The translations under genes and the position numbers were made by a program. Positions 267-9,848 of a stretch of DNA of 10,293 nucleotides are shown here, piece by piece. The stretch is from the NCBI GenBank assembly GCA_016931875.1, contig JAFGDX010000092.1, forward strand, positions 1 to 10,293. The letters run 5' to 3'. How positions within the stretch are numbered: position 1 is the stretch's first letter; every line of letters starts with the position of its first letter. Source of the stretch: Prolixibacteraceae bacterium (GTDB lineage Bacteria; Bacteroidota; Bacteroidia; Bacteroidales; Prolixibacteraceae). The notes under the pieces are model-generated. The model was not told the DNA's origin. It made no database searches and saw only the letters and a list, made by a program, of their open reading frames with translations.

Positions 267-297
267 TTGTCAAAGAGTGCAATCTTGCCGACACACC
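267..297 (+). promoter_or_regulatory. Degenerate ECF-type promoter upstream of the sigma gene (candidate autoregulation)
   Basis: TTGTCAAA at 267-274, a 14-nt spacer, then CGACACACC from 289. This matches the TTGTCAGG-N15-CGACTATTC motif found before five downstream units in the first six bases and in CGAC, with a spacer one base shorter, as in the 5160 site. CGAC begins 56 nt before the sigma ATG, close to the 55 nt seen at the 4594 and 5160 sites. The GG of the -35 half and the TATTC extension are missing, so it may be weaker. Confidence 0.45.
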
Positions 298-344: not shown

Positions 345-899
345 ATGAATAAAAAAGATTTATCAACTTGGGTGGCAGAATTTACTGACGACCTGTACAG
401 ATGGGCTTATCATAAGACATCTTCAAATGATTTAGCCGCTGATTTGGTGCAGGATACTTTCCTTGCTGCCTCTGAAAAAATAGAAAGTTTCAAAGGTGAC
501 AGTTCGCCAAAAACATGGCTTTTCAGTATCCTGAACCACAAAATTATCGACCATTACAGGAAAAAAGTAAACCAAACTGTTAACATTGATGACCAATCTT
601 TTTCTGTATTTTTTGATTCCGGTGGAAGCTGGGAGGAAAGCCGTAAGCCAAAAGACTGGCACGAAAACGATGAAAAACATGTGCTCGACGACAACGAATT
701 TCAGAAGGTACTTGAAAAATGTATGGATGCCCTTCCCGAAAAATGGAATGCGTGTGTAAAATTAAAATACCTGGCTGAAAAAAATGGAGAAGAAATTTGT
801 CAGGAACTGGGAATTACCACGTCCAATTTTTGGCAGATTGTTCACAGGGCAAAACTTCAGTTGAGGGATTGCGTGGAGAAAAACTGGTTCAACAATTAA
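345..899 (+). CDS. ECF-type sigma-70 family RNA polymerase sigma factor
   Basis: A 184-residue sigma factor that would direct RNA polymerase to a dedicated promoter set. The sigma-2 region spans about residues 8-75, with the region 2.1/2.2-like DLVQDTFLAA and the promoter-melting PKTWLFSILNHKIIDHYRKK. A charged linker (about 78-115) follows, with the FFDSGGSW and KPKDWHENDEKH segments. Sigma-4 covers about 116-182, with LPEKW, the helix-turn-helix around EEICQELGITTSNFWQIVHRAKLQLRDC and a terminal EKNWF. The linker and this sigma-4 sequence resemble the TIGR02943-type ECF family, whose genes are often followed by a small zinc-finger anti-sigma gene (from memory). The next gene, 12 nt downstream, fits that. 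No region 1.1 or 3 is present, as is normal for ECF factors. It is the only transcription factor in the window and the natural reader of the repeated motif downstream. Confidence 0.93.
   Translation: MNKKDLSTWVAEFTDDLYRWAYHKTSSNDLAADLVQDTFLAASEKIESFKGDSSPKTWLFSILNHKIIDHYRKKVNQTVNIDDQSFSVFFDSGGSWEESRKPKDWHENDEKHVLDDNEFQKVLEKCMDALPEKWNACVKLKYLAEKNGEEICQELGITTSNFWQIVHRAKLQLRDCVEKNWFNN
797..828 (+). promoter_or_regulatory. Possible internal ECF-type promoter before the anti-sigma gene
   Basis: Inside the sigma coding region, TTGTCAGG (797-804) is followed after exactly 15 nt by CGTCCAATT (820-828). The -35 half is identical to the intergenic sites and the spacing is the same. The -10 half is CGTC, the commonest ECF -10 core, rather than CGAC. 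It lies 92 nt before the anti-sigma ATG, farther than the other sites, and could be a coding coincidence, since TTGTCAGG here encodes part of the conserved sigma-4 helix. Confidence 0.3.
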
Positions 900-911
900 T
901 TCAGAAGAATC

Positions 912-1181
912 ATGAAAAATAAAATAATGCACTTTTTCTTTCTATCGTGTTTAAAAGCTACCGAGTTGATTGAAAAAAAATTTCATTTCAAACTGTCGTT
1001 TACCGAAAAAGTTCAGCTTGAAATGCACAAAATGATGTGCGACGCGTGTAAAACCTACGAAAAACAGAGCGGGATTATTGAAAAAGGATTAACAGAACAT
1101 CATCACGAACACCAGCATGAAATGGATTTGGAAGATTTAAAAAAACAAATTCAATCAAAGTTGTCACAAAGTTCAAATTAG
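912..1181 (+). CDS. Small soluble zinc-finger (ZAS-type) anti-sigma protein
   Basis: An 89-residue protein starting 12 nt after the sigma gene. Residues 39-46 read HKMMCDAC, which is H-x3-C-x2-C, the core zinc/thiol signature of ZAS anti-sigma factors (RsrA/ChrR type; zf-HC2-like). A basic helical segment (EKVQLEMHK) precedes it and KTYEKQ follows, the layout of small anti-sigma proteins paired with this sigma type. A third cysteine is at residue 13. A histidine-rich patch, HHHEHQHE (63-70), precedes a C-terminal amphipathic helix. No convincing membrane segment is seen beyond a short hydrophobic N-terminus (HFFFLSCL), so it is probably cytoplasmic. Inference: it binds and silences the adjacent sigma factor and releases it when zinc is lost or cysteines are oxidised. 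The identification rests on motif, size and position. Confidence 0.75.
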   Translation: MKNKIMHFFFLSCLKATELIEKKFHFKLSFTEKVQLEMHKMMCDACKTYEKQSGIIEKGLTEHHHEHQHEMDLEDLKKQIQSKLSQSSN

Positions 1182-1445
1182 ATGAAAAATAAACACGAAA
1201 CACAAAGTTTTCTGAAACTTGCGTCACAAAAAGAATCACTGAATCGTGCGCTGCGAGTGGCAGTTCTGGTTGGAATAATCCTGAATCTAATTAACAATCC
1301 TTCCTTATTTCAGCTTAAAACGGAAGGAATCAATATTTACCGGGTATTACTCACATTTTTAGTCCCTTTTTGTGTATCGTTGTATTCATCCGTTTTAGCC
1401 CACCGAAAAAAATGCCCCGAGACAGTTGCCATTAAAACCGATTAA
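1182..1445 (+). CDS. nrtS: NrtS-like two-helix membrane protein (putative nitrate/nitrite transporter)
   Basis: An 87-residue protein whose ATG directly follows the anti-sigma stop (0-nt gap), implying translational coupling. Two hydrophobic helices are visible: about 24-39 (LRVAVLVGIILNLINN) and about 53-74 (YRVLLTFLVPFCVSLYSSVLAH), joined by a short polar loop. The pattern RALRVAVLVGxILNLIN followed by LLTFLVPxCVSxYSSV matches the small NrtS family as I recall it. That family was described in cyanobacteria as a nitrate/nitrite transporter. Both termini are polar, and a lysine-rich tail follows helix 2. Its role in a redox-type regulon is unclear; export or uptake of nitrogen oxyanions or reactive nitrogen species is speculation. 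Other small paired-helix proteins cannot be excluded. Confidence 0.65.
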   Translation: MKNKHETQSFLKLASQKESLNRALRVAVLVGIILNLINNPSLFQLKTEGINIYRVLLTFLVPFCVSLYSSVLAHRKKCPETVAIKTD

Positions 1446-1449
1446 AATA

Positions 1450-2010
1450 ATGAGCAGAATTAAAGTAATAGAACCCGAAAATGCAACTGGCAGGCTGCAA
1501 GAAATTTACAACGACATAATAAAAAAGCGGGGTAAACTAGCCGATGTCCATAAAATTCAAAGTCTCCGCCCCGAAAGCATTGTTGCCCACCTGGACTTGT
1601 ATTTGGAAATCATGTTCTCGAAATCGGAACTTTCAAGAGCAGAACGCGAAATGATGGCAGTGGTAGTTTCGGTAGCCAACGGTTGCGAATATTGCCAAAT
1701 GCATCATGCTCAAGCACTCAATCATTATTGGAAAAACGACGATAAAATCTCGCAGTTGCGCACTGATTTTAAAAATGCAAATCTAAGCAACCGCGAATTG
1801 GTCCTGTGTAATTTTGCCAACCTCTTAACAGCCAATCCGGAAGCATTTCGAAATGAAAAATATCTCACTCCCCTGAAAAAGATTGATGTCACCGACAGCG
1901 GAATCCTGAATGCGACGCTTGTAGTGGCTTATTTTAATTTTGTAAACCGCATTGTTTTATCTCTCGGATTGGAAGCTACTCAAAACGAAATGCAAGGATA
2001 TAAATACTAA
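1450..2010 (+). CDS. AhpD-like (carboxymuconolactone decarboxylase family) peroxidase-related protein
   Basis: From the ATG at 1450 this is a 186-residue protein. That start lies 4 nt after the previous stop and puts the family N-terminus SRIKVIEP first; an upstream in-frame ATG at 1426 overlaps the previous gene and adds only MPLKPIKI. Residues 67-86 carry the AhpD-type active site, E67 then NGCEYCQMHH, giving C79-x2-C82-x3-H86. The catalytic cysteines, histidine and upstream acidic residue of the CMD/AhpD domain are therefore all present. The layout fits the 'uncharacterized peroxidase-related enzyme' subfamily (TIGR01926 type): an all-helical domain with a long N-terminal lead-in and a C-terminal YFNFVNRIVLSLG segment. 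Likely role: thiol-dependent hydroperoxide reduction or disulfide reductase activity in the cytoplasm. The exact substrate is not known for this subfamily. Confidence 0.85.
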   Translation: MSRIKVIEPENATGRLQEIYNDIIKKRGKLADVHKIQSLRPESIVAHLDLYLEIMFSKSELSRAEREMMAVVVSVANGCEYCQMHHAQALNHYWKNDDKISQLRTDFKNANLSNRELVLCNFANLLTANPEAFRNEKYLTPLKKIDVTDSGILNATLVVAYFNFVNRIVLSLGLEATQNEMQGYKY

Positions 2011-2012
2011 AA

Positions 2013-2699
2013 ATGAGTTTCCCTGAAATAAACATTAACAAAATTGCCACACTCCCCATTGAAACCTTTCGGGAAATGGATTTTCTGGCTGTTCGGAATT
2101 ACAATCTTCCTATTGAATTGATGATGGAAAATGCCGGATTAAATCTTGCACGCCTCGCCGCTTCATTGCTTCCTGAAAAAGGTCAAATCCTTATTGGAGT
2201 TGGAACCGGGAACAACGGAGGCGGCGGATTGGTTGCCGCAAGAAGGCTTGCCGCGTGGGGATTCGAGGTTTTTCTTGATATTCCTGACCAAAATCTGAAA
2301 AAACTTCCAGCCAGCCAATTAAAAAAGGCGTTAACATTTGGTGCGAAAACTGAAAAACCGAAACACCCAAAGCTCTTTATCGATGCGTATTTTGGTTTTT
2401 CACAAAGGCTGCCTTTGCCTGCCATTTTTGAAAAGACACTGGAAACAGCCAATCAGTTTAGTTGCCCTAAAATATCGCTCGATTTACCTTCTGGCTTTAA
2501 TAAACATACATTCGAAAGCCTTTTTAAGCCAGATGCTATTCTAACACTGGCAGCGATGAAAACCGAGTTGGTTGCGCTTCTTGAAACGGTTCAAATTTTT
2601 GTTGCCGACCTTGGAATTCCCTCTTTTGTTTATAAGGAATTTAAAACCGAAATCCCTGATTCTTTTAAAACTACTGGTATTTTGCAAATAAAACCTTAG
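2013..2699 (+). CDS. nnrE: Stand-alone NAD(P)H-hydrate epimerase (YjeF N-terminal domain)
   Basis: A 228-residue protein starting 2 nt after the previous stop. The YjeF-N family epimerises R- and S-NAD(P)HX, the damaged hydrated cofactors, so that the dehydratase can repair them. Visible signatures are MMENAG (37-42), the Rossmann-like loop GVGTGNNGGGGLVAARRL (62-79), IDAYFGFS (123-130), LDLPSGF (156-162) and VADLGIP (197-203). The usual GNNGGDG loop reads GNNGGGG, so the aspartate at position 71 is glycine, and the usual Asp after PSG-W/F is asparagine (N163). The bifunctional E. coli type has a C-terminal dehydratase domain of about 280 residues; it is absent here, so the partner (NnrD) must be elsewhere. 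Last gene of the sigma unit. Function is likely, but the active-site changes leave room for a related activity. Confidence 0.8.
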   Translation: MSFPEININKIATLPIETFREMDFLAVRNYNLPIELMMENAGLNLARLAASLLPEKGQILIGVGTGNNGGGGLVAARRLAAWGFEVFLDIPDQNLKKLPASQLKKALTFGAKTEKPKHPKLFIDAYFGFSQRLPLPAIFEKTLETANQFSCPKISLDLPSGFNKHTFESLFKPDAILTLAAMKTELVALLETVQIFVADLGIPSFVYKEFKTEIPDSFKTTGILQIKP

Positions 2700-2808
2700 T
2701 TACTTCTAACCATACAACTTTATTACTTCCGCTCATTTCTTCTCAATTTCCTTGTCAGGAAACACAAAGGCATTCGACTATTCCCGTGAAAATTAAATTT
2801 CACGAGAA
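2700..2808 (+). promoter_or_regulatory. ECF-type promoter 1 with 5' inverted repeat, before the DUF4833 gene
   Basis: TTGTCAGG at 2752-2759, a 15-nt spacer, then CGACTATTC at 2775-2783, ending 25 nt before the ATG at 2809. A 7-bp inverted repeat follows directly: CGTGAAA (2785-2791) and TTTCACG (2798-2804) with a 6-nt loop. It would fall at the extreme 5' end of the transcript, next to the start codon. Confidence 0.7.
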
Positions 2809-3336
2809 ATGAATCAGGTAATAAAAGTCATTATTTTTTCAGCAGTTTTCTTCGTATTTGAACTTGTTTCCACTGCGTCGGACTCGGAAAATTCAAACAG
2901 TAATTCACTGTTCAAAATTGGCCGCAGCAAAGATGCCAACGAAATTTTTTATGAAGTAAGAACAACCCCGGATGGTAATTTAAATTTAGATGAACCTATC
3001 AAAATTTACTGGATAAAATACGCCGAAAACAGCGCAGTTGAGCCATTAACGAAAGTTCAGCAGCTTTTTGCCTACGGATTAAAATTTTTGGAAGTTACGC
3101 CTGAAAAAGCCGATTTTCAGTTTGTTTCCTATGCTAAACGAACCTTGTCGCTTTCAAAAAACGATGTCGGGAAATATGTAGTTTCGACCGAAGTCGACGG
3201 TAAGAACGTGGAACTCGAACGGGTTTTTTTACAAATTGACGGCGGCACCTTCTGGTTTCCAAAAATATCACGAGTTGAGATTTATGCAAAAAAAGCGGAA
3301 GCAGGAGAGCCTGTTGTCGAAATTATAATTCCCTGA
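2809..3336 (+). CDS. DUF4833 family exported protein
   Basis: A 175-residue protein with an N-terminal hydrophobic signal (about 5-20, VIKVIIFSAVFFVFELV) and probable cleavage near residues 22-24. The mature part opens with LFKIGRSKDANEIFYEV, continues with GNLNLDEPIKIYWIKYAE and ends in a beta-rich region with an aromatic GGTFWFPKISRVEIYAKK. I recognise this combination as the DUF4833 family, common in Bacteroidota, of unknown function. No catalytic cysteine, serine triad or metal-ligand cluster stands out, so a binding or structural periplasmic role is more likely than an enzyme. It has its own ECF-type promoter and is followed after 40 nt by the rhodanese-thioredoxin gene, which has no such promoter and is probably co-transcribed. 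Both products are exported. Confidence 0.75.
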   Translation: MNQVIKVIIFSAVFFVFELVSTASDSENSNSNSLFKIGRSKDANEIFYEVRTTPDGNLNLDEPIKIYWIKYAENSAVEPLTKVQQLFAYGLKFLEVTPEKADFQFVSYAKRTLSLSKNDVGKYVVSTEVDGKNVELERVFLQIDGGTFWFPKISRVEIYAKKAEAGEPVVEIIIP

Positions 3337-3376
3337 TTTAAATAGCGAAAACTATCAAAAACAAATACTTCAAAAA

Positions 3377-4105
3377 ATGAAACGATTAATCAATCCTGCA
3401 ATATTATTACTCCTGCAATTTTGCACATTTGCACAACCCACAAAAATAAACCAGGTGAACCCTGCCCAGTTTAACCAACTTATTAAAAAACCGGGCGGAG
3501 TTTTACTTGATGTTCGTACTCAAAATGAATATAAAAACGGGCATATTGCCAATGCAGGGCAATTAAATTATTACGCTCTCGACTTTAGAAAACGCGTATT
3601 ACTACTACCTAAAGACGAGCCCATTTATTTGTATTGCAACACTGGTTGGCGTAGTGAAAAAGCCGCACAAATTTTAGAAGAAAACGGCTACAAAAATGTG
3701 TATAGCCTGGAACACGGAATCATGGACTGGGAACTGCAAAACCTCCCGGTAGTGGTTGACCCTGACGCCAAACCCGACACCGAAAATAAAATGGAATATG
3801 AAGAACTGGCACGGTTTATCGAATCTGGGAAACCCGTGTTTATTGACTTTTACGCGCCGTGGTGTGGCCCGTGTCGTACGATGATGCCAATTGTTGACGA
3901 GTTGAAAACAAAATACCAAGGAAAAGTGAATGTGATAAAGGTGAATGTTGATGCCAGCAAAAAACTGGTGAAAGAAATGAAAATTCAGGGTGTGCCGTAT
4001 TTCAAGTTATACAAAAACGGCTCGTTAATTTATTTAAAAAATGGGTTGGCAACGCGTGACGAGCTTTTATCCGCTTTTGAAAAAAGCGAGAAAATCAAAA
4101 AATGA
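3377..4105 (+). CDS. Exported rhodanese-thioredoxin fusion protein
   Basis: A 242-residue protein. Residues 1-20 are a signal peptide ending F-A-Q, a typical Bacteroidota cleavage context. A rhodanese domain spans about 25-127: VLLDVRTQNEY (42-52), GHI-NA (55-60) and the active-site loop CNTGWR with C87, followed by the LEHGIMDWE motif. A thioredoxin domain spans about 137-238: FIDFYAPWCGPC with C163 and C166, and the cis-proline in GVPYF (P207). Both active sites look intact. The rhodanese could carry sulfane sulfur on C87, and the thioredoxin domain in the same chain could reduce the persulfide or partner disulfides. This is inference from domain order. Location is the periplasm. A TTATTTTAG/CTAAAATAA inverted repeat lies just downstream. 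Confidence 0.9.
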   Translation: MKRLINPAILLLLQFCTFAQPTKINQVNPAQFNQLIKKPGGVLLDVRTQNEYKNGHIANAGQLNYYALDFRKRVLLLPKDEPIYLYCNTGWRSEKAAQILEENGYKNVYSLEHGIMDWELQNLPVVVDPDAKPDTENKMEYEELARFIESGKPVFIDFYAPWCGPCRTMMPIVDELKTKYQGKVNVIKVNVDASKKLVKEMKIQGVPYFKLYKNGSLIYLKNGLATRDELLSAFEKSEKIKK

Positions 4106-4113
4106 ATATCGCC

Positions 4114-4138
4114 TTATTTTAGGCCGTGACTAAAATAA
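4114..4138 (+). terminator. AT-rich inverted repeat, possible weak terminator
   Basis: Perfect 9-bp arms, TTATTTTAG (4114-4122) and CTAAAATAA (4130-4138), flank a 7-nt loop, starting 8 nt after the rhodanese-thioredoxin stop. The stem is AT-rich and no U-tract follows, so termination would be weak. It sits between one transcription unit and the next ECF-type promoter. Confidence 0.35.
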
Positions 4139-4147
4139 TATCGGATT

Positions 4148-4179
4148 TTGTCAGGATTGAAGAAATCTTCCGACTATCA
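4148..4179 (+). promoter_or_regulatory. ECF-type promoter 2, before the DsrE-like gene
   Basis: TTGTCAGG at 4148-4155, a 15-nt spacer, and CGACTATCA at 4171-4179; CGAC begins 49 nt before the ATG. It shares the extended block ATTTTGTCAGGATT with the site at 6946. Confidence 0.7.
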
Positions 4180-4219
4180 CTCAAAATTAAAATAGTTAAA
4201 CAATTTAAAATTAAAAAAG

Positions 4220-4576
4220 ATGGCAAAAATAGCAATCGTAGTTTTTTCAGATACAAATACCATTGAAGCCATGGGAAAAGTGTCGAATGCATTTATGTTG
4301 GCTTTAGAAGCAGTTGAAAATGGCGACGACCTGAAAATTATTTTTGAAGGGGCAGGCACAAAATGGATTGGGGAGTTAGAAAAAGAAGACCACAAATTGC
4401 ACGGTTTGTACAAAGTATTAAAAGACAAAATTACCGGTGCATGTAGTTTCTGTGCTCAGGCTTTTGGAGTAAAAAACCAGGTGGAAAGCGCCGGAATCAA
4501 TTTAATTTCAGAATACAAGCAACATCCAAGTTTGCGGAATCTGATTACTGAAGGGTACAGTGTAATTAATTTCTGA
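4220..4576 (+). CDS. DsrE family cytoplasmic sulfur-relay-like protein
   Basis: A 118-residue protein with no signal peptide. The fold pattern is that of DsrE/DsrF-like proteins: an opening beta strand AKIAIVVFSD, a helix (EAMGKVSNAFMLALEAVENG), a strand with a small-residue loop (LKIIFEGAGT), and a cysteine-bearing GACSFCAQAFG (73-83, with C75 and C78) preceding a helix. Related proteins (DsrE, TusD, YchN) pass sulfane sulfur on a conserved cysteine, and C78 or C75 would be the acceptor. Which one is equivalent cannot be settled by eye. It forms a single-gene unit with its own ECF-type promoter, directly after the rhodanese fusion. That suggests sulfane-sulfur handling in both compartments, which is inference. 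Confidence 0.85.
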   Translation: MAKIAIVVFSDTNTIEAMGKVSNAFMLALEAVENGDDLKIIFEGAGTKWIGELEKEDHKLHGLYKVLKDKITGACSFCAQAFGVKNQVESAGINLISEYKQHPSLRNLITEGYSVINF

Positions 4577-4593
4577 AAAAAATTGAATATGGT

Positions 4594-4625
4594 TTGTCAG
4601 GAAATTATTTGTGTGCCGACAAATC
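4594..4625 (+). promoter_or_regulatory. ECF-type promoter 3, before the thioredoxin-like gene
   Basis: TTGTCAGG at 4594-4601, a 15-nt spacer, CGACAAATC from 4617; CGAC begins 55 nt before the ATG at 4672. The -10 extension differs from TATTC. An ATTTGT/ACAAAT inverted repeat (4607-4612, 4619-4624) overlaps the -10 half. Confidence 0.6.
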
Positions 4626-4671
4626 AGTCGTAAACTAAAATTATCAGTAAAAAATTTAAAATTCAAAAATT

Positions 4672-5079
4672 ATGAAAACAGTTAAGACGATTTTCGCAAG
4701 TGTAGCACTTGTAGTGGTGATTTCAGTTTCTGCTTTTGCAGGAACAGGTTCAAAAGTAGTGGCAGTCATTAACCATGCAAAATGGTGCCCGGCTTGCCAA
4801 AACAACGGCGAACGCGCCATGGCCTGCTTTAAGGAAAACAACAAGGATATGGCTATCCAGTTTGTGGCCAACGATGTAACCGACGATGCAAGCAAAGCTA
4901 AATCAGCCGAAGAGTTGAAAAAAGTTGGCCTCGATAAAGCGATGGCTGATTACAAAACAACGGGCGTGGCTTATTTTTTCGACGCCGAATCGAAAAAACT
5001 GATTACACAGGTGAGTGTTGCAAAAAGCAACGAAGAATTAGCGGAAACAATGAAACTCGCATTAAACGAGGTGAAGTAA
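4672..5079 (+). CDS. Exported thioredoxin-like protein with WCPAC site
   Basis: A 135-residue protein with a clear signal peptide (1-23, ending A-F-A before GTG). The mature domain begins VVAVINHAKWCPACQNNGE, giving a redox-active C39-P-A-C42 pair at the start of a helix, as in thioredoxin-fold proteins. A third cysteine, C52, lies one helix later. Later strands read MAIQFVANDVTD and GVAYFFDAESKKLITQV. The position that normally holds the cis-proline (GVP in thioredoxin) appears to be GVA (A100), so substrate binding may differ from classical thioredoxin. Likely a periplasmic thiol-disulfide protein, of unknown partner. It is a single-gene unit with its own ECF-type promoter, closed by the strongest terminator in the window. 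Confidence 0.82.
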   Translation: MKTVKTIFASVALVVVISVSAFAGTGSKVVAVINHAKWCPACQNNGERAMACFKENNKDMAIQFVANDVTDDASKAKSAEELKKVGLDKAMADYKTTGVAYFFDAESKKLITQVSVAKSNEELAETMKLALNEVK

Positions 5080-5097
5080 AGAAGGGAGGATTTGAGT

Positions 5098-5128
5098 AAA
5101 AAAGCGGGGCATCAGTCCCGCTTTTTTT
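5098..5128 (+). terminator. Rho-independent terminator
   Basis: Stem of six A plus GCGGG (5098-5108), loop GCATCAGT (5109-5116), CCCGC (5117-5121) and a run of seven T (5122-5128). It starts 18 nt after the thioredoxin-like stop. The A and T tracts extend the stem, so it may work on both strands. Confidence 0.9.
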
Positions 5129-5159
5129 ATGCATTTTTTTGAAAAAATATTGCTTCCAG

Positions 5160-5190
5160 TTGTCAGGTTTTGAATTATTTACGACTGTTC
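5160..5190 (+). promoter_or_regulatory. ECF-type promoter 4, before the OB-fold/YceI/peroxiredoxin unit
   Basis: TTGTCAGG at 5160-5167, a 14-nt spacer (one shorter than the other strong sites), CGACTGTTC at 5182-5190; CGAC begins 55 nt before the ATG at 5237. It follows the terminator by about 30 nt, so it starts an independent unit. Confidence 0.65.
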
Positions 5191-5236
5191 AGGCATAAAA
5201 CAAAAATTGAAATTTTAAAAATCAAAAATTGAAAAA

Positions 5237-5713
5237 ATGAAAAGGAAAAAAATCATCAGAATTGGATTGATAGCGGCAGTAGCCGGGATAGTAATTGCAG
5301 GAGCAGTTGGGCTTTACATGTTTAATATGCCGCACCGCGACGTACAGTCGGCAAAAGCTGACTTTAGTTTAACCGGCCAGCAATTAGTAAGCGAATACCT
5401 GGCTGATGCTACTTCAGCCAATGAAAAATACCTTGCTGCCGACGGCGATTCAAAAATCCTTGAAGTTTCAGGAACAGTGAGTAAAATCTCGGAAGATTTC
5501 GACGGGCAAAAAGTTGTCCTGCTAAAAAACGATGGCGACAAAGCCGGGGTGAGCGCAACTTTCACTCCTGAAACAAATGCAAACGCAGCTAATCTCGAAG
5601 TCGGGCAAAATGTGACCGTCAAAGGCGTAATCCGCTCTGGCGCAGCTTATGATTCAGACCTTGAACTTTACGAAAATGTAATCCTCGAAAAAAGCGATGT
5701 TGTATCAAAATAA
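5237..5713 (+). CDS. Membrane-anchored OB-fold protein (tRNA_anti-like)
   Basis: A 158-residue protein with a basic N-terminus and one hydrophobic helix (about 8-29). A conserved-looking juxtamembrane FNMPHRDVQSAKADFSLT follows, then GQQLVSEYLADATSANEKYL and a beta-rich OB-fold: KILEVSGTVSKISEDFDGQKVVLL, VSATFTPE, LEVGQNVTVKGVIRSG, DLELYENVILEK. The pattern matches Bacteroidota OB-fold proteins of the tRNA_anti-like Pfam family (PF12869). No lipobox cysteine is seen, so it is probably anchored by an uncleaved helix with the OB domain in the periplasm. Function is unknown; despite the family name, nucleic-acid binding outside the cytoplasm is unlikely. It begins an apparent three-gene unit with YceI (32-nt gap) and a peroxiredoxin. 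Confidence 0.8.
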   Translation: MKRKKIIRIGLIAAVAGIVIAGAVGLYMFNMPHRDVQSAKADFSLTGQQLVSEYLADATSANEKYLAADGDSKILEVSGTVSKISEDFDGQKVVLLKNDGDKAGVSATFTPETNANAANLEVGQNVTVKGVIRSGAAYDSDLELYENVILEKSDVVSK

Positions 5714-5745
5714 AAATCATTTATAAACAAAAAAAGTAAGAAATC

Positions 5746-6306
5746 ATGAAAAAGTTAGTGTTATTAATTGTAGCAGTAGTATTATTTGCAGGCTTTTCAG
5801 CCAGTGGCCAGTCAAAACTGGTGAGTTCAAAATCGCACATCAAATTCTTTTCTTCCACACCGGCCGAGGATATTCAGGCCAACAACACCACCTCGGTTAG
5901 TACCATTAATCCGGCAACCGGCGAAATCGTTTTCTCGGTGCCCATGCAGGGTTTTGAATTTGAAAAAGCGTTGATGCAGAAACATTTTAACGGCGAAGAT
6001 TTCCTGAATACAAAAGATTTTCCAAAAGCAAAACTTACAGGTAAAATCACCAACCTCGACAAAGTAAATTTTAGCGCCAATGGCACTTACGATGCGCATG
6101 TTGAAGGCGAACTTACTATTAAAGGGGTAACCAAACCGGTTCACGAAATGGGGAAAATTACCGTGAAAGACGGAAAAGTGGAAGCCGACAGTAAATTCAA
6201 TGTTACGCTGGCCGATTACGGGATAACTTTTGTAAAAGGCAAACCGTCAACCAACATTTCCAAAACCGTTGAAGTTACCGTTCAGGCTGAATACGAAGTA
6301 CAATAA
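5746..6306 (+). CDS. Exported YceI family lipocalin-like protein
   Basis: A 186-residue protein with a signal peptide (about 1-21). The mature part is an almost purely beta YceI domain (about 24-184). Family landmarks are an early SKSHIKFFSSTPAEDIQANN, the INPATGEIVFSVPMQGFEFEKALMQKHFNG segment with the typical 'MxxHFNxxxFLxTxxFPKA' pattern (77-95), GELTIKGVTKPV (121-132) and a C-terminal NVTLADYGITFVKGKPS. YceI proteins form a barrel that binds polyisoprenoid or other long amphiphilic molecules in the periplasm and are often linked to acid, oxidative or respiratory stress. The last links here to a peroxiredoxin fit a stress role. The ligand cannot be read from sequence. Confidence 0.92.
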   Translation: MKKLVLLIVAVVLFAGFSASGQSKLVSSKSHIKFFSSTPAEDIQANNTTSVSTINPATGEIVFSVPMQGFEFEKALMQKHFNGEDFLNTKDFPKAKLTGKITNLDKVNFSANGTYDAHVEGELTIKGVTKPVHEMGKITVKDGKVEADSKFNVTLADYGITFVKGKPSTNISKTVEVTVQAEYEVQ

Positions 6307-6365
6307 ATAATATGAATAAAAACCGGGAGTGGCAGGTTTCCCTGTTACTCCCTAATCTTAAAAAA

Positions 6366-6926
6366 ATGGAAGCAACAAGTTATAAAAAGGTGAAAGAAGC
6401 AAAAGGCCTGCAAGTTGGGGAAGTTGCCCCGAATTTTTCGGCTGTTGATTTGCACGATAATGTTTTCAACCTGGGAGAAGCCTTAAAGAATGGGCCGGTT
6501 GTGGTAATCTTTTATCGCGGCCAATGGTGCCCGTTTTGTAACAAGCATCTGAAAACGCTGGAACAAAGCCTCGATAAAATTTATGAAAAAGGTGCAAGTG
6601 TGGTGGCGGTTTCGCCAGAAAAATCGGAGTTTTTAAAACGTACTGCCGACAAAACAAAGGCTTCTTTTTCGCTGTTGTTCGACGAAGATTATAAAATTTC
6701 CGAAGCTTTTAATGTGGTATTCAGACCAACAAAACTGGAACGGACTATTTACAACAAAATTCTGAAAGCCGATTTAACGAATGCCCACTCTGACGAGAGC
6801 CAGCAATTGCCCATCCCGGCAACATTCATTATTGGCAAAGACGGAAAAATTGCCTGGCGGCATTTTGACCCGGACTACAAAAAGCGGTCAACAGTCGACG
6901 ATATTGTTAAGAACATCCCGAATTAA
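6366..6926 (+). CDS. Cytoplasmic peroxiredoxin-like protein (AhpC/TSA family)
   Basis: From the ATG at 6366 this is a 186-residue protein starting MEATSYKKVK. That start has a poly-A leader and puts VGEVAPNFSAVDLHD at the usual distance from the N-terminus. An in-frame ATG at 6312, 5 nt after YceI, would add 18 residues without family resemblance but cannot be excluded. The active site is FYRGQWCPFCNKHLKTL, with C55 and C58 in a CxxC arrangement like the PRX-like2/PrxQ-type branch of AhpC/TSA, where the first cysteine attacks the peroxide. PATFIIGKDGKIAWRHFDPDYKKRS (151-175) is the typical C-terminal strand pair. No signal peptide is present. Likely reduces hydroperoxides with thioredoxin-type reductant. 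Last gene of the OB-fold/YceI unit. Confidence 0.9.
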   Translation: MEATSYKKVKEAKGLQVGEVAPNFSAVDLHDNVFNLGEALKNGPVVVIFYRGQWCPFCNKHLKTLEQSLDKIYEKGASVVAVSPEKSEFLKRTADKTKASFSLLFDEDYKISEAFNVVFRPTKLERTIYNKILKADLTNAHSDESQQLPIPATFIIGKDGKIAWRHFDPDYKKRSTVDDIVKNIPN

Positions 6927-6945
6927 GTATTTCTGAGTACTGATT

Positions 6946-6977
6946 TTGTCAGGATTCGATGAAAAATTCGACTATTC
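6946..6977 (+). promoter_or_regulatory. ECF-type promoter 5, before the DinB/NRDE/DUF6695/CoaB unit
   Basis: TTGTCAGG at 6946-6953, a 15-nt spacer, CGACTATTC at 6969-6977; CGAC begins 42 nt before the ATG at 7011. It is identical in both halves and spacing to the site at 2752 and shares ATTTTGTCAGGATT with the site at 4148. Confidence 0.7.
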
Positions 6978-7010: not shown

Positions 7011-7517
7011 ATGAAGACAGTAGCAAAAGAAAATCTGATGCAGTTAAAAGAATTGCTTCAGAAAATAAACAATGAAGACTACCAAAAGAAGAACGAAGTT
7101 CTCTCCGGTTCTGCTGTCGGACAACACATCCGGCATATTCTGGAGTTCTACCTTCTGTTGGTTTCCGGCTCGTTTTCAGGCACCATCAGTTACGATAAAC
7201 GCCAGCGCGACAAACAAATTGAGGTAAGTGCAGAATTTGCCATCGAAACCATTGACCGCTTAATAAAAGGATTTGACACGCTGGACTTAAACCAAACTGT
7301 AAAATTCGAGGGCGATTTTACCACCGACGGTTCGCAGGATAATTTTACTGAAAGTTCGGTGGGTCGTGAACTTGCCTATTGCATTGAACACAGCATCCAT
7401 CACCAGGCGATTATCAAAGCTGGTCTTATCGACATGGGCCTGCAGGCTTTAATCGGAGAAAATTTTGGAGTGGCTTATTCGACTATCCGTTACCGCGAAA
7501 ACCAATGTGCACAGTAA
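7011..7517 (+). CDS. DinB-like four-helix protein
   Basis: A 168-residue, mostly helical protein without a signal peptide. The DinB/YfiT pattern is visible: an N-terminal helix (ENLMQLKELLQKI), a histidine-bearing helix (SAVGQHIRHILEFYLLL, H39 and H42) and a late helix (GRELAYCIEHSIHHQAIIKAG, with H127, H130 and H131). Histidines from those two helices form the metal site in DinB-like proteins (H42, H127 and H131 are likely; inference). A conserved-looking tail, FGVAYSTIRYREN, ends the protein. Some DinB-superfamily members are metal-dependent thiol transferases, such as bacillithiol-S-transferases, but no specific signature assigns this one. The gene starts the last ECF-type unit, and its end overlaps the NRDE gene by 13 nt. 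Confidence 0.82.
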   Translation: MKTVAKENLMQLKELLQKINNEDYQKKNEVLSGSAVGQHIRHILEFYLLLVSGSFSGTISYDKRQRDKQIEVSAEFAIETIDRLIKGFDTLDLNQTVKFEGDFTTDGSQDNFTESSVGRELAYCIEHSIHHQAIIKAGLIDMGLQALIGENFGVAYSTIRYRENQCAQ

Positions 7518-8230
7518 GTTATATACCAAATAAAAAGACAGGTGGTTTTGTGCTTACATCGAACCGCGATGAGAAAGCGTACCGGCCAACTGTTCCGCCT
7601 AAAATTTATAAGGTGGGTGAAACAAATATTGGTTTTCCCAAAGACGAAAAAGCGGGTGGTTCGTGGATTGCAGCAAATAACCGGGGACGGCTGTGTTGCC
7701 TTTTGAATGGCGCTTTTGAAGCACACGTAAAAAAATCAGTTTATGCGCAAAGCCGGGGAAATATTTTGGTTGAGGCGGCTTTGTCGCCTAAAAATCCTGA
7801 ACAGTATTTTGCAGAAAAGAACCTTGAGGATGTTGAGCCTTTTACAATCATAACGGTTGAAGAAAACGCGGATATAGTAACCCATTTCAGTGAATTTGTT
7901 TGGGACGGTACGCATAAATACTACCGGCAACTGAATCCTGATGAAAACTACATCTGGTCGTCGGCGACACTTTACAGCAAAGAGCACCGAACTTTGCGCC
8001 GCCAGTGGTTCAATAAGTTTATTTCTGAAATGAATGGAAGTATTTCGCCGGAATCGATACTTGGCTTTCATGCAGGAAAACATACGGAGGACCATTCCAT
8101 AAATCTGGTTATGGAACGAGATGGAGGACTCGAAACGGTAAGTATCACACAGGTACTTCCGGTTAATGGAAAATTAGAAATGCAATACTTCGATTTGAAC
8201 AATCAGCAAAATACGAAACTTGAAATATGA
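7505..8230 (+). CDS. NRDE family (TANGO2-like) protein
   Basis: A 241-residue protein beginning MCTVSYIPN, with a cysteine at position 2 as in the Ntn-hydrolase-like NRDE family. The name-giving SNRDE motif is at 19-23, and the next block, PKDEKAGGSWIAANNRGRLCCLLNGA (45-70), matches the second family signature. A C-terminal beta region contains HTEDHSINLVMERDG and SITQV. NRDE/TANGO2 proteins occur from bacteria to humans; a link to heme trafficking or mitochondrial metabolism has been proposed for the eukaryotic ones, but the bacterial role is unsettled. If C2 becomes N-terminal after methionine removal it could be a nucleophile. The gene overlaps DinB by 13 nt and shares an ATGA with the next gene, so the three are translationally coupled. 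Confidence 0.9.
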   Translation: MCTVSYIPNKKTGGFVLTSNRDEKAYRPTVPPKIYKVGETNIGFPKDEKAGGSWIAANNRGRLCCLLNGAFEAHVKKSVYAQSRGNILVEAALSPKNPEQYFAEKNLEDVEPFTIITVEENADIVTHFSEFVWDGTHKYYRQLNPDENYIWSSATLYSKEHRTLRRQWFNKFISEMNGSISPESILGFHAGKHTEDHSINLVMERDGGLETVSITQVLPVNGKLEMQYFDLNNQQNTKLEI

Positions 8231-9186
8231 GCCTTCAGAAAAAACATACCGGATTTGCGATTGCCATAGCCTGGCCCGAAACCTGGTGCAAACAATCGGG
8301 CGCGTGGTACGACGGGTTTATCAACCGCCTTGAAATAAGTAAACACCACTATTACAAAGTGGGGCATGCCGCCTTGGTTTTGATTGATGATGAAACAGGC
8401 CGCTGCCACTATTTCGATTTCGGACGTTACCATACGCCGTTCCAGCATGGCCGTGCCCGTAGCGAAAAAACCGACGATGGCCTGAAAATGAAATCACGCG
8501 CAAAAATCTCAGCCGATAAAAAACAGATTCTGAATTACGAAGATATTTTAACCGAATTACAAAACAATGCTGAATGCCATGGCGAAGGTGCAATACATGC
8601 ATCGTACGGGCGGATTAATTTTGAAAAAGCCTTGGCAAAAGCAGAAGAAATGCAACAGCAAAGCCCCATCCGTTACGGTCCGTTCCGATACAAAGGGAGT
8701 AATTGTTCGCGGTTTGTAAACACTGTTCTCCGTGCAGGAAATCCCGACTGGAAATCAGCTTTTAAACTGAATTTTTTGGTGCCGCTCACGCCAACACCTA
8801 TGAACAATGTAAATTCATTCGGGAATAAAACTACCCTGCCTAAATTATTGCCGCTCACTTTTACACCTTCGCCAGTTGCCGATAAAAGCAAATTAAAAGG
8901 TGTGTTGCCAGAACCCAAACGTCCGGGAAACGTAACTGAAAACGCACAGTGGCTGGCCGGTGAAGGAGCCGGCTCATGGTTTGCATTCGAAATCGAAAAT
9001 CACTTATTGAAAGTTATTAGATATTCTGTAAATGGAGTAATTGAATGTGTGGGTTTGTTCGAAAATAAAGATGCAATCAAGTTTTTAAAAAACGATAAAT
9101 CATATAAAGTGGCTTATCCCAGCAATTGCAAAACGGTTTCGCTTCATGTAAATGGCTCCGAAATAAGGTTTAACCGTGCAAATTAA
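8227..9186 (+). CDS. DUF6695-like protein, possible papain-fold (NlpC/P60-like) enzyme
   Basis: A 319-residue protein without a signal peptide, starting in a 4-nt ATGA overlap. The N-terminal part has GFAIAIAWPETWCKQSGAWYD (9-29), then KVGHAALVLIDDETGRCHYFDFGRY (44-68). A second block, FRYKGSNCSRFVNTVLRAG (153-171), holds C160 at the start of a hydrophobic helix. A GHAA histidine (H47) on a strand with an NCSRFV cysteine on a later helix is the order of circularly permuted NlpC/P60 or YiiX-like papain folds, so H47/C160 could be a catalytic pair. The C-terminal quarter (238-318) looks like a separate beta-rich domain, WLAGEGAGSWFAFEIEN and beyond. I believe this corresponds to DUF6695 of Bacteroidota. 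The substrate is unknown. Confidence 0.65.
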   Translation: MSLQKKHTGFAIAIAWPETWCKQSGAWYDGFINRLEISKHHYYKVGHAALVLIDDETGRCHYFDFGRYHTPFQHGRARSEKTDDGLKMKSRAKISADKKQILNYEDILTELQNNAECHGEGAIHASYGRINFEKALAKAEEMQQQSPIRYGPFRYKGSNCSRFVNTVLRAGNPDWKSAFKLNFLVPLTPTPMNNVNSFGNKTTLPKLLPLTFTPSPVADKSKLKGVLPEPKRPGNVTENAQWLAGEGAGSWFAFEIENHLLKVIRYSVNGVIECVGLFENKDAIKFLKNDKSYKVAYPSNCKTVSLHVNGSEIRFNRAN

Positions 9187-9197
9187 ACACACTAAAA

Positions 9198-9848
9198 ATG
9201 CTTAAAGGGAAAAAGATTTTACTAACCGTAGGACCGACAAGGGAATTTTTAGACCCTGTACGGTTTATTACCAACGAATCGAGCGGTAAAATGGGTTTTG
9301 CCATTGCAGAGGAACTGCAAAAAGAAAATGTCGAACTGGTAATTATTTCCGGCCCGGTTAACATACATCTGAAAGTTCCTGAGGAAAATATAAAAAAAGT
9401 AAGCACGGCGTTAGAAATGTACGAAGCATGTCAAAAACATTTCAGTAAGGTTGATATTGCCATTTTTACCGCAGCCGTTGCCGATTACAGGCCAAAACAT
9501 CAGGCCACTTCCAAAATTAAAAAGGACGGAGATATTGCTATGGTTGAATTTGTTAAGAATCCTGATATCGCAGCAGAATTTGGCAAGATTAAATTGCCAC
9601 ATCAAATATCTGTTGGTTTTGCCCTTGAAACAGACAATGTAATTGAAAACGCACAAAAAAAGCTAACAAAAAAAGGATTTGATATGATAGTAATTAACAG
9701 CCCAAACCCAGGTGAAGGATTCGGATACGATACCAATAAAGTTTTAATTCATATAAAAGGGCAAAATATTCAGGATTATCCTTTAAAACCGAAAAGTGAA
9801 GTTGCCAGAGATATTGTGGATAAAATCAAACTTCTAATTGATAAATAG
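9198..9848 (+). CDS. coaB: Stand-alone phosphopantothenate-cysteine ligase (CoaB) domain protein
   Basis: A 216-residue protein 11 nt after the previous gene. It covers only the CoaB half of the usual bifunctional CoaBC (about 400 residues). Signatures: LLTVGPTREFLDPVRF (8-23), ITNESSGKMG (24-33, with the conserved Asn26), TAAVADYRP (91-99), the KIKK lysine segment (106-109), GFALET (140-145), FDMIVIN (161-167) and GFGYDTNKVLI (174-184). CoaB joins cysteine to 4'-phosphopantothenate using CTP. The decarboxylase half CoaC is absent, so the product would need CoaC from elsewhere. Most likely this is an additional CoaB paralogue alongside a housekeeping CoaBC (inference). All recognisable binding motifs are kept, so activity is plausible. 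As the last gene of a redox-type regulon it might support CoA, the cell's cysteine-derived thiol, under stress. Confidence 0.88.
   Translation: MLKGKKILLTVGPTREFLDPVRFITNESSGKMGFAIAEELQKENVELVIISGPVNIHLKVPEENIKKVSTALEMYEACQKHFSKVDIAIFTAAVADYRPKHQATSKIKKDGDIAMVEFVKNPDIAAEFGKIKLPHQISVGFALETDNVIENAQKKLTKKGFDMIVINSPNPGEGFGYDTNKVLIHIKGQNIQDYPLKPKSEVARDIVDKIKLLIDK

Follow-up and report, generated by a model that had tools for sequence, protein, structure and literature searches.

Which promoters are read by the extracytoplasmic function (ECF) sigma factor encoded on contig C1 of a Prolixibacteraceae bacterium, and how is the gene for its predicted inhibitor, a small anti-sigma factor, brought under control? 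The window considered here is the whole of this contig, 10,293 bases, from a fragmented source assembly (3.23 Mb in 583 contigs, ~71% complete). All 16 window proteins that were scanned against profiles are encoded on one strand. They comprise the ECF sigma factor, the anti-sigma factor and then mainly redox- and sulfur-handling proteins, namely a carboxymuconolactone-decarboxylase-like peroxidase, a YjeF epimerase, a DUF4833 protein, a rhodanese-thioredoxin fusion and DsrE, thioredoxin-like, OB-fold, YceI, peroxiredoxin, DinB, TANGO2, TseH-like and DFP proteins. Judged from sequence comparisons, the cluster is probably the redox-stress regulon of a single ECF sigma factor related to the Neisseria sigma-E/Haemophilus RpoE2 type, including a promoter for the anti-sigma brake that is embedded in the sigma gene itself. 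The features concerned are the following (aa, amino acids).

345..899, + strand: ECF sigma factor gene, 184 aa, with sigma-70 regions 2 and 4_2 (PF04542, E 2.4e-16; PF08281, E 2e-7)
797..826, + strand: candidate embedded promoter, -35 TTGTCAGG (797-804) and -10 CGTCCAA (820-826), over the presumed region-4.2 helix-turn-helix codons 152-161
912..1181, + strand: predicted small anti-sigma factor gene, 89 aa, with a C-x25-H-x3-C-x2-C pattern of the zinc-containing anti-sigma (ZAS) type (NF052368 antisigmaE, E 1e-12, 47.6 bits, cut-off 50)
2752..2778, + strand: putative promoter site 1, TTGTCAGG-N15-CGAC, a pattern match
4148..4174, + strand: putative promoter site 2, TTGTCAGG-N15-CGAC, a pattern match
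4594..4620, + strand: putative promoter site 3, TTGTCAGG-N15-CGAC, a pattern match
5160..5185, + strand: putative promoter site 4, TTGTCAGG-N14-CGAC, kept before orthologues in four relatives
6946..6972, + strand: putative promoter site 5, TTGTCAGG-N15-CGAC, a pattern match
267..292, + strand: degenerate site TTGTCAAA-N14-CGAC ahead of the sigma gene, lacking conservation, possibly a weak autoregulatory promoter or a chance match

The first-pass annotation of this DNA had proposed that five transcription units share one bipartite promoter motif. Five exact copies of TTGTCAGG-N13..16-CGAC are indeed found, at 2752, 4148, 4594, 5160 and 6946 of the + strand; 200 dinucleotide shuffles gave none. 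All five are intergenic, with spacers of N15, N15, N15, N14 and N15 and with CGAC 34, 49, 55, 55 and 42 nucleotides (nt) ahead of the next start codon. The TATTC that had been proposed to follow CGAC is not constant; the sites read CGACTATTC, CGACTATCA, CGACAAATC, CGACTGTTC and CGACTATTC in order. The five intergenic copies stand, and a sixth copy of TTGTCAGG had been overlooked at 797, inside the sigma open reading frame (ORF) and followed by CGTC at N15.

In the whole assembly, eight exact copies of the motif are present, five in the window and three on contig C75 (L055, L056), and both contigs carry the sigma gene or its 68% paralogue. A relaxed pattern, TGTCAGG-N14/15-CGNC, occurs 17 times in the assembly and six times in the reversed control; 12 of the 17 matches fall on the two sigma contigs, which make up ~1% of the assembly, and all 12 lie on the + (sigma) strand, both embedded copies included. 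With six copies on C75 (three exact, and three relaxed that include one inside the paralogous sigma gene), the window cannot be the self-contained regulon that it had been taken for, and the two paralogous sigma factors probably share promoters. Four of the C75 copies are intergenic and precede rhodanese-thioredoxin-like, DsrE, thioredoxin-like and weakly cytochrome-P460-like genes, and one more lies inside a predicted ORF (9935).

A scan of related genomes had been suggested as a check on the motif. As a bare strict pattern it stayed at background in 60 relatives (64 matches versus 67 in the reversed control), so that the motif is meaningful only next to the sigma gene, where it is enriched. 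Four contigs with a sigma factor 59-69% identical to that of the window (G019:C50, G026:C37, G027:C52 and G050:C43) have one exact match each, less than ~3 kb behind the sigma gene and on the same strand, and none was found on G019:C103, which stops ~400 nt behind the sigma gene, or on G038:C3 (49%). For a wider comparison, 80 sigma loci were fetched from named genomes via an alignment of eight close sigma proteins and divided into a near set of 22 loci (sigma at least 47% identical) and a distant set of 58. With embedded copies counted, TGTCAGG-N14/15-CG is present on the sigma strand of 15 near and three distant loci. Outside the sigma gene, TGTCA-N16/17-CGAC occurs 20 times on the sigma strand of 13 near loci, four times on the other strand and seven times in two reversed controls together, and TGTAA-N16/17-CGAC in the distant loci 29 times on the sigma strand, 18 times on the other and 17 times in controls. 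De novo dyad searches of upstream regions, with the window excluded, ranked GTCA-N17-CGAC and TGTC-N19-GACT top for the 22 near loci (present in 11, 0.08 expected) and TAAG-N16-CGAC top for the 58 distant ones (present in 20, 0.25 expected). The null for these dyads was dinucleotide shuffles, or mononucleotide shuffles for two distant subsets (34 and 21 of the 58 loci); reversed sequence was uninformative here, since the TCAG/GACT dyad reads the same in reverse and brought real sites back into the control. The refuting outcome named with the motif, clusters that retain the genes without it, did not arise where tested, and orthologues of window genes have sites in several relatives: these precede the OB-fold gene in G001, G012, G027 and G050, DsrE on C75 and in L086, the rhodanese-thioredoxin gene in L061 and L086, and DinB relatives in L098, L101 and, at a distance of 286 nt, L057. 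As its distribution indicates, the motif belongs with the sigma gene and not with the lineage at large.

The second half of the question turns on the copy inside the sigma gene. It reads TTGTCAGG-N15-CGTCCAA at 797-826, and its -10 lies 92 nt before the anti-sigma ATG; a sequence matching the promoter consensus thus lies within the sigma ORF, on the same strand and ahead of the anti-sigma gene, as in the PrshA type of arrangement discussed below. The same bases encode residues 152-161 (C-Q-E-L-G-I-T-T-S-N), which align to region 4 of solved ECF factors, a segment that we take to be the helix-turn-helix. Relatives spell these codons TGT-CAG-GA, TGT-AAG-GA or TGT-AAT-GA, and 22 bases from TGT there is mostly a codon ending in CG followed by TCN (L098, L131, L139, L148 and L159, in which anchoring of the region failed, were excluded). 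At almost every locus examined AAG is in the minority, and roughly one in ten P/S/T/A codons of these genes is NCG. Scored with a matrix built from 63 intergenic sites of relatives only, the embedded copy of the window reaches 21.6, the best score in its gene (training sites, 20.2-28.7, 5th-95th percentile), and when each gene was recoded synonymously in 400 draws, a score as high as its observed one arose with p 0.0075 (window gene) and p 0.0025 (paralogue); this scoring of embedded copies covered 141 genes, with L133, L206 and L182 left out.

A scan for excess synonymous identity, which uses codon usage per locus and favours no column, was run on the genes in which the pattern had first been noticed (85 of 87; L097, the same gene as G038, absent from the set, and L132, with an in-frame stop, were left out). 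Residues 159, 153 and 152 rank 1, 2 and 4 among 155 columns for the 28 near-set genes and 1, 9 and 4 among 177 columns for the 57 distant-set genes, and other columns also rank high, 175 and 53 in the near set and 184 and 98 in the distant set. The pattern recurs in a hold-out of 54 sigma genes from genomes searched later, 51 after removal of three duplicates (L175, nearly the same as L174, was kept). Lys 153 is encoded by AAG in 17 of 18 cases (4.6 expected), P/S/T/A 159 by NCG in 38 of 44 (8.3 expected), Cys by TGT in 38 of 44 (23.6 expected), Gln by CAG in 10 of 10 (6.2 expected), Asn by AAT in 10 of 10 (6.4 expected), Ser 160 by TCN in 32 of 33 (20.5 expected) and Ser in place of Cys by AGT in five of five (0.6 expected); the hold-out probabilities treat genes as independent, which is not fully true. 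In the same genes NCG is used in 35 of 37 with the -35 residue kept (7.1 expected) and in three of seven without it (1.2 expected). The full set of 148 genes reduces to 144 different ones, of which L133 and L206 are mis-anchored (L133 has no embedded -35, and the helix of L206 reads ICLEL). Across these 144 genes Lys 153 is AAG in 48 of 53, and in the 96 with an embedded -35 the site has NCG in 82 of 89 cases versus 370 of 3486 at other P/S/T/A codons.

The anti-sigma gene accompanies the embedded element. It follows in 94 of the 94 judgeable genes that keep the embedded -35 (91 by script and three by eye), the contigs of the other two (L107 and L218) ending too soon. The script had scored 10 of the 142 judged genes as lacking an anti-sigma gene; L144, L216 and L201 among them keep the embedded -35 and by eye have a homologue with R for H. 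None of the seven genes without an anti-sigma ORF (L099, L105, L203, L143, L208, L206 and L182), for which the 420 nt after the stop were checked by eye and no such ORF was seen, keeps the embedded -35. The converse fails, as the other 41 genes without an embedded -35 do have an anti-sigma gene. A phylogenetic pair test for anti-sigma loss gave two supported pairs and is not relied on; all embedded -35 genes were coded as anti-sigma-positive, which favours the embedded-promoter reading. Two of the near-clade loci without an anti-sigma gene have a motif copy directly after sigma; in L099 it precedes a small ORF that weakly matches sigma region 2, and in L105 a gene for a membrane protein resembling the DUF6789 protein of L093.

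Could the embedded copy be inactive as a promoter, a by-product of the conserved protein sequence and of biased codon use, while the intergenic motifs are sigma promoters? The C-Q/K-E and P/S-S residues are conserved in the helix-turn-helix, so the protein fixes part of the spelling, some of these genomes often use CAG ahead of G, and intergenic counterparts of the embedded copy are very scarce in the distant clade. However, the rare codons NCG and AAG coincide precisely with the -10 and -35 bases, much more often than locus usage predicts in the hold-out and much more often than in the same genes elsewhere, the NCG excess is weaker where the -35 residue has been lost, and the seven anti-sigma-less genes all lack the embedded -35. 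We consider a by-product unlikely.

How the sigma gene itself is read seems to differ between clades. TGTAAGG-type ECF sites stand before it, in the form searched, in 20 of the 47 genes that lack an embedded -35 and have sufficient upstream sequence, and in one of 96 with it. Nineteen of those 20 belong to a single 21-row clade, with Pedobacter, Mucilaginibacter and Chitinophaga among its members; L164 is the remaining one. When embedded loss was set against upstream gain, 10 independent phylogenetic pairs were obtained, with trait b unchanged in nearly all. It would fit these data that an upstream promoter drives sigma and anti-sigma together and that the embedded copy has decayed there. The degenerate site at 267 in the window was considered as a conserved autoregulatory promoter and rejected, as none was found before the paralogue or near relatives. 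A rule by which the embedded -35 letter always matches the intergenic one was likewise rejected; the letters agree in most clade-1 loci that have both, and in L096 and L109, but differ in G026 and L093.

Several observations weigh against an embedded promoter and a shared regulon. The embedded -10 is CGTC and the intergenic copies of the window have CGAC, and the -10 is off consensus in 14 of the 96 genes with an embedded -35 (82 have CGTC or CGAC). In G026 and L093 the embedded A disagrees with the intergenic C. As many as 48 of the 144 genes are without an embedded -35, and 27 of the 47 judgeable ones among them have no upstream site either. The exchange of embedded for upstream sites is essentially the event of one clade, so its Fisher value overstates independence. 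Seven of the 22 near loci are without a TGTCAGG-N14/15-CG copy, and the Neisseria (gonococcal) relative is without the embedded site, which was also looked for and not found in relatives from Acinetobacter portensis and Burkholderia glumae. Finally, in 18 distant-clade genomes picked for their embedded copy, the strict pattern TGTAAKG-N14/15-CGWCTAA gave 14 matches in 13 genomes (reversed control, 5), and 12 of these are the embedded copy itself, so that an intergenic regulon is hardly visible. Local intergenic copies in the distant clade are few: 34 loci, with 367 regions between them, yield four sites (0.1 expected), and the embedded element possibly serves something else there. In 13 of the 18 genomes of this distant clade (clade 2), the embedded site is nearly the sole perfect strict-motif copy genome-wide.

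To which known systems does this sigma factor belong? The sigma gene, at 345..899, heads the cluster as had been stated, with sigma-70 region profiles over cut-off. Its product has the make-up of an ECF (group IV sigma-70) factor, with regions 2 and 4 only and a short linker; the other two Pfam matches are under cut-off. It reaches 94.2 bits with TIGR02937 (cut-off 42.9) and aligns with the solved ECF sigma factors SigH, SigW and SigE. With TIGR02943, which NCBIfam describes as a sigma-70 family without functional name, the window sigma (residues 10-183) scores 150.9-151.3 bits and the paralogue 142.3, below the cut-off of 162.2; this is the second-best among named families, after NF009184 (PRK12532; 151.7 bits, also below its cut-off of 276). 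In the literature searched, the TIGR02943 accession turned up in a single paper, which deals with phages of freshwater Actinobacteriota. The closest named relatives of the gene in a homologue search are Bacteroidales and Bacteroidetes metagenome-assembled genomes. The gonococcal sigma-E relative shares 39.5% identity with the window sigma across 84% of its length. Directly downstream, as in RpoE2-type systems, lies the small ZAS-type gene at 912-1181, whose NF052368 score is just under cut-off, and we infer that its 89-aa product is an anti-sigma factor that binds the window sigma.

In Neisseria, sigma-E (NMB2144) and its anti-sigma factor MseR (NMB2145) have been described with a -35 of GTMAGBWTT, a -10 of CGTCTAAH and a spacer of 12-13 nt (Hopman et al. 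2010, PMC2893595; PMC3240639), and a conserved A is reported six bases beyond the -10, where it coincides with a start mapped for one target in gonococci (PMC2893595). Because this consensus is similar and the gonococcal sigma is related, TGTCAGG-N14/15-CGACTA is most plausibly a variant of an established kind of promoter. Like the Neisseria locus, the window has an ECF sigma gene and then a small ZAS anti-sigma gene, with a promoter of the GT(A/C)AG...CGTCTAA kind. Unlike the Neisseria consensus, its motif fixes C at the M position, and its intergenic -10 is CGAC, with A for T. A redox link is common to both, Neisseria sigma-E having msrA/msrB as a target, whereas the Neisseria sigma operon reportedly has its own upstream promoter, through which it feeds back positively on itself (PMC2893595; PMC3240639). 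The proposal of the first-pass annotation that these are ECF promoters thus gains support from a motif that tracks the sigma clade, is recovered de novo in relatives and resembles the Neisseria consensus. Anti-sigma factors of the RpoE2/HrsE kind have been tied to ECF group 13 (PMC7907618). In Haemophilus influenzae, a small ZAS-type anti-sigma factor, described as cytoplasmic, is encoded beside the sigma gene as in the window, and the RpoE2/HrsE system responds to the oxidants HOCl and H2O2 (PMC7907618). The targets named for RpoE2 are msrAB and a transporter, and the relevant passages of PMC7907618 report no embedded promoter. None of the 16 window proteins scanned, to which the search for msrAB in this incomplete genome was confined, is a methionine sulfoxide reductase.

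Two half-sites at fixed spacing could also be bound by another protein, and TTGTCAGG-N14/15-CGAC might be the operator of a DNA-binding activator or repressor; its GTC and GAC are inverted, over three bases only. However, the motif follows the sigma clade both in sequence and in presence, the distant form TGTAAGG-CGAC drops the GTC/GAC inversion, the copies lie at promoter distance from start codons, the likeness is to a Neisseria consensus for which the start of one target is reported as mapped, and no other regulator family was recognised among the window proteins scanned, which makes an operator very improbable. That the five sites are coincidental, or stem from recent duplication of one upstream region, is hardly credible: three copies do share a 30-nt similarity of ~70% (family D4), but this is mostly the motif itself, the downstream genes come from different families, the motif is found de novo beside related sigma genes, and sites are kept before orthologous genes.

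Hence, we hypothesize a redox-stress regulon with an embedded brake promoter that would work as follows. RNA polymerase carrying the window sigma would recognize a -35 of TTGTCAGG and a -10 of CG(A/T)C, 14-15 nt apart, and initiate at the motif. At rest the 89-aa zinc-type protein may hold the sigma factor, and an oxidant may set it free, a holding and release modelled on the Neisseria and Haemophilus systems. Free sigma would start the five intergenic units of thiol- and peroxide-handling genes, and would also start the embedded transcript, which covers the anti-sigma gene and probably the three genes behind it and leaves out sigma. The inhibitor would then rise and sigma would not, giving negative feedback without positive feedback, so that the response could be shut off quickly.

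A role of this kind has been proposed for PrshA of Corynebacterium glutamicum, which lies inside sigH, depends on SigH and transcribes rshA only, for a fast shut-down (PMC3489674). This wiring is reported as a difference from Streptomyces coelicolor and Mycobacterium tuberculosis (PMC3489674). Unlike the window factor, SigH is another ECF sigma with the motif TGGAAGA/TGTTAAA, and the parts of PMC3489674 that concern PrshA report no conservation, codon constraint or helix-turn-helix position for it. As far as the sequences tell, what is new beyond this precedent is a conservation by codon choice across much of a phylum and the location in the codons of the recognition domain. No description of an embedded site in this sigma family was found in the open-licence PMC literature, the only kind searched. 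In much of the Bacteroidota, sigma genes of this family are probably both the reader and one of its own binding sites: a conserved promoter in the codons of the -35-reading helix-turn-helix would dictate synonymous codons, possibly even residue 153 (K, AAG, versus Q, CAG), and clades would choose between inhibitor-only wiring and an upstream site that drives both genes, switching the sign of feedback.

The motif would supply a readable recognition sequence for an uncharacterised Bacteroidota stress sigma factor, and the embedded copy a clean case of a promoter that seems to be under selection within coding sequence across much of a phylum and that codons alone suffice to reveal. Whether the feedback acts on the brake only or on accelerator and brake together may be read from sequence and is testable in cultured Flavobacterium and Pedobacter. 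Prediction of ECF targets, as described in a review (PMC8103513), leans on autoregulated sigma factors, and genes wired with an embedded anti-sigma promoter could therefore be missed.

The remaining genes of the window, which would make up the predicted transcription units, are listed below.

1182..1445, + strand: small membrane protein, NrtS-like (NF038050, 26.6 bits, cut-off 25), probably in the anti-sigma transcription unit
1450..2010, + strand: peroxidase-related carboxymuconolactone decarboxylase family protein (PF02627; TIGR01926, 142.6 bits)
2013..2699, + strand: NAD(P)H-hydrate epimerase-like protein, YjeF_N (PF03853, 100.1 bits)
2809..3336, + strand: DUF4833 protein (PF16117, 123.4 bits)
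3377..4105, + strand: rhodanese-thioredoxin fusion, downstream of site 1 (PF00581, PF00085)
4220..4576, + strand: DsrE-family protein (PF02635), whose C75 orthologue has its own site
4672..5079, + strand: thioredoxin-like exported protein with a CPAC motif (assigned from sequence; weak Redoxin match below cut-off), whose C75 orthologue has its own site
5237..5713, + strand: tRNA_anti-like (OB-fold) protein (PF12869, 61.2 bits)
5746..6306, + strand: YceI-family protein, downstream of site 4 (PF04264, 71.2 bits)
6312..6926, + strand: AhpC/TSA peroxiredoxin, downstream of site 4 (PF00578, 95.8 bits)
7011..7517, + strand: DinB-superfamily protein (PF12867/PF05163), heading a probable unit with 7505-8230 (TANGO2), 8227-9186 (TseH-like) and 9198-9848 (DFP)

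A similar set of partner genes is found on an Acinetobacter portensis plasmid (L237, 924-5537), where a distant sigma gene lies beside carboxymuconolactone decarboxylase, thioredoxin, peroxiredoxin-like and YiiX/N1pC-P60 hydrolase genes, the counterpart in the window being the TseH-like gene at 8227-9186.

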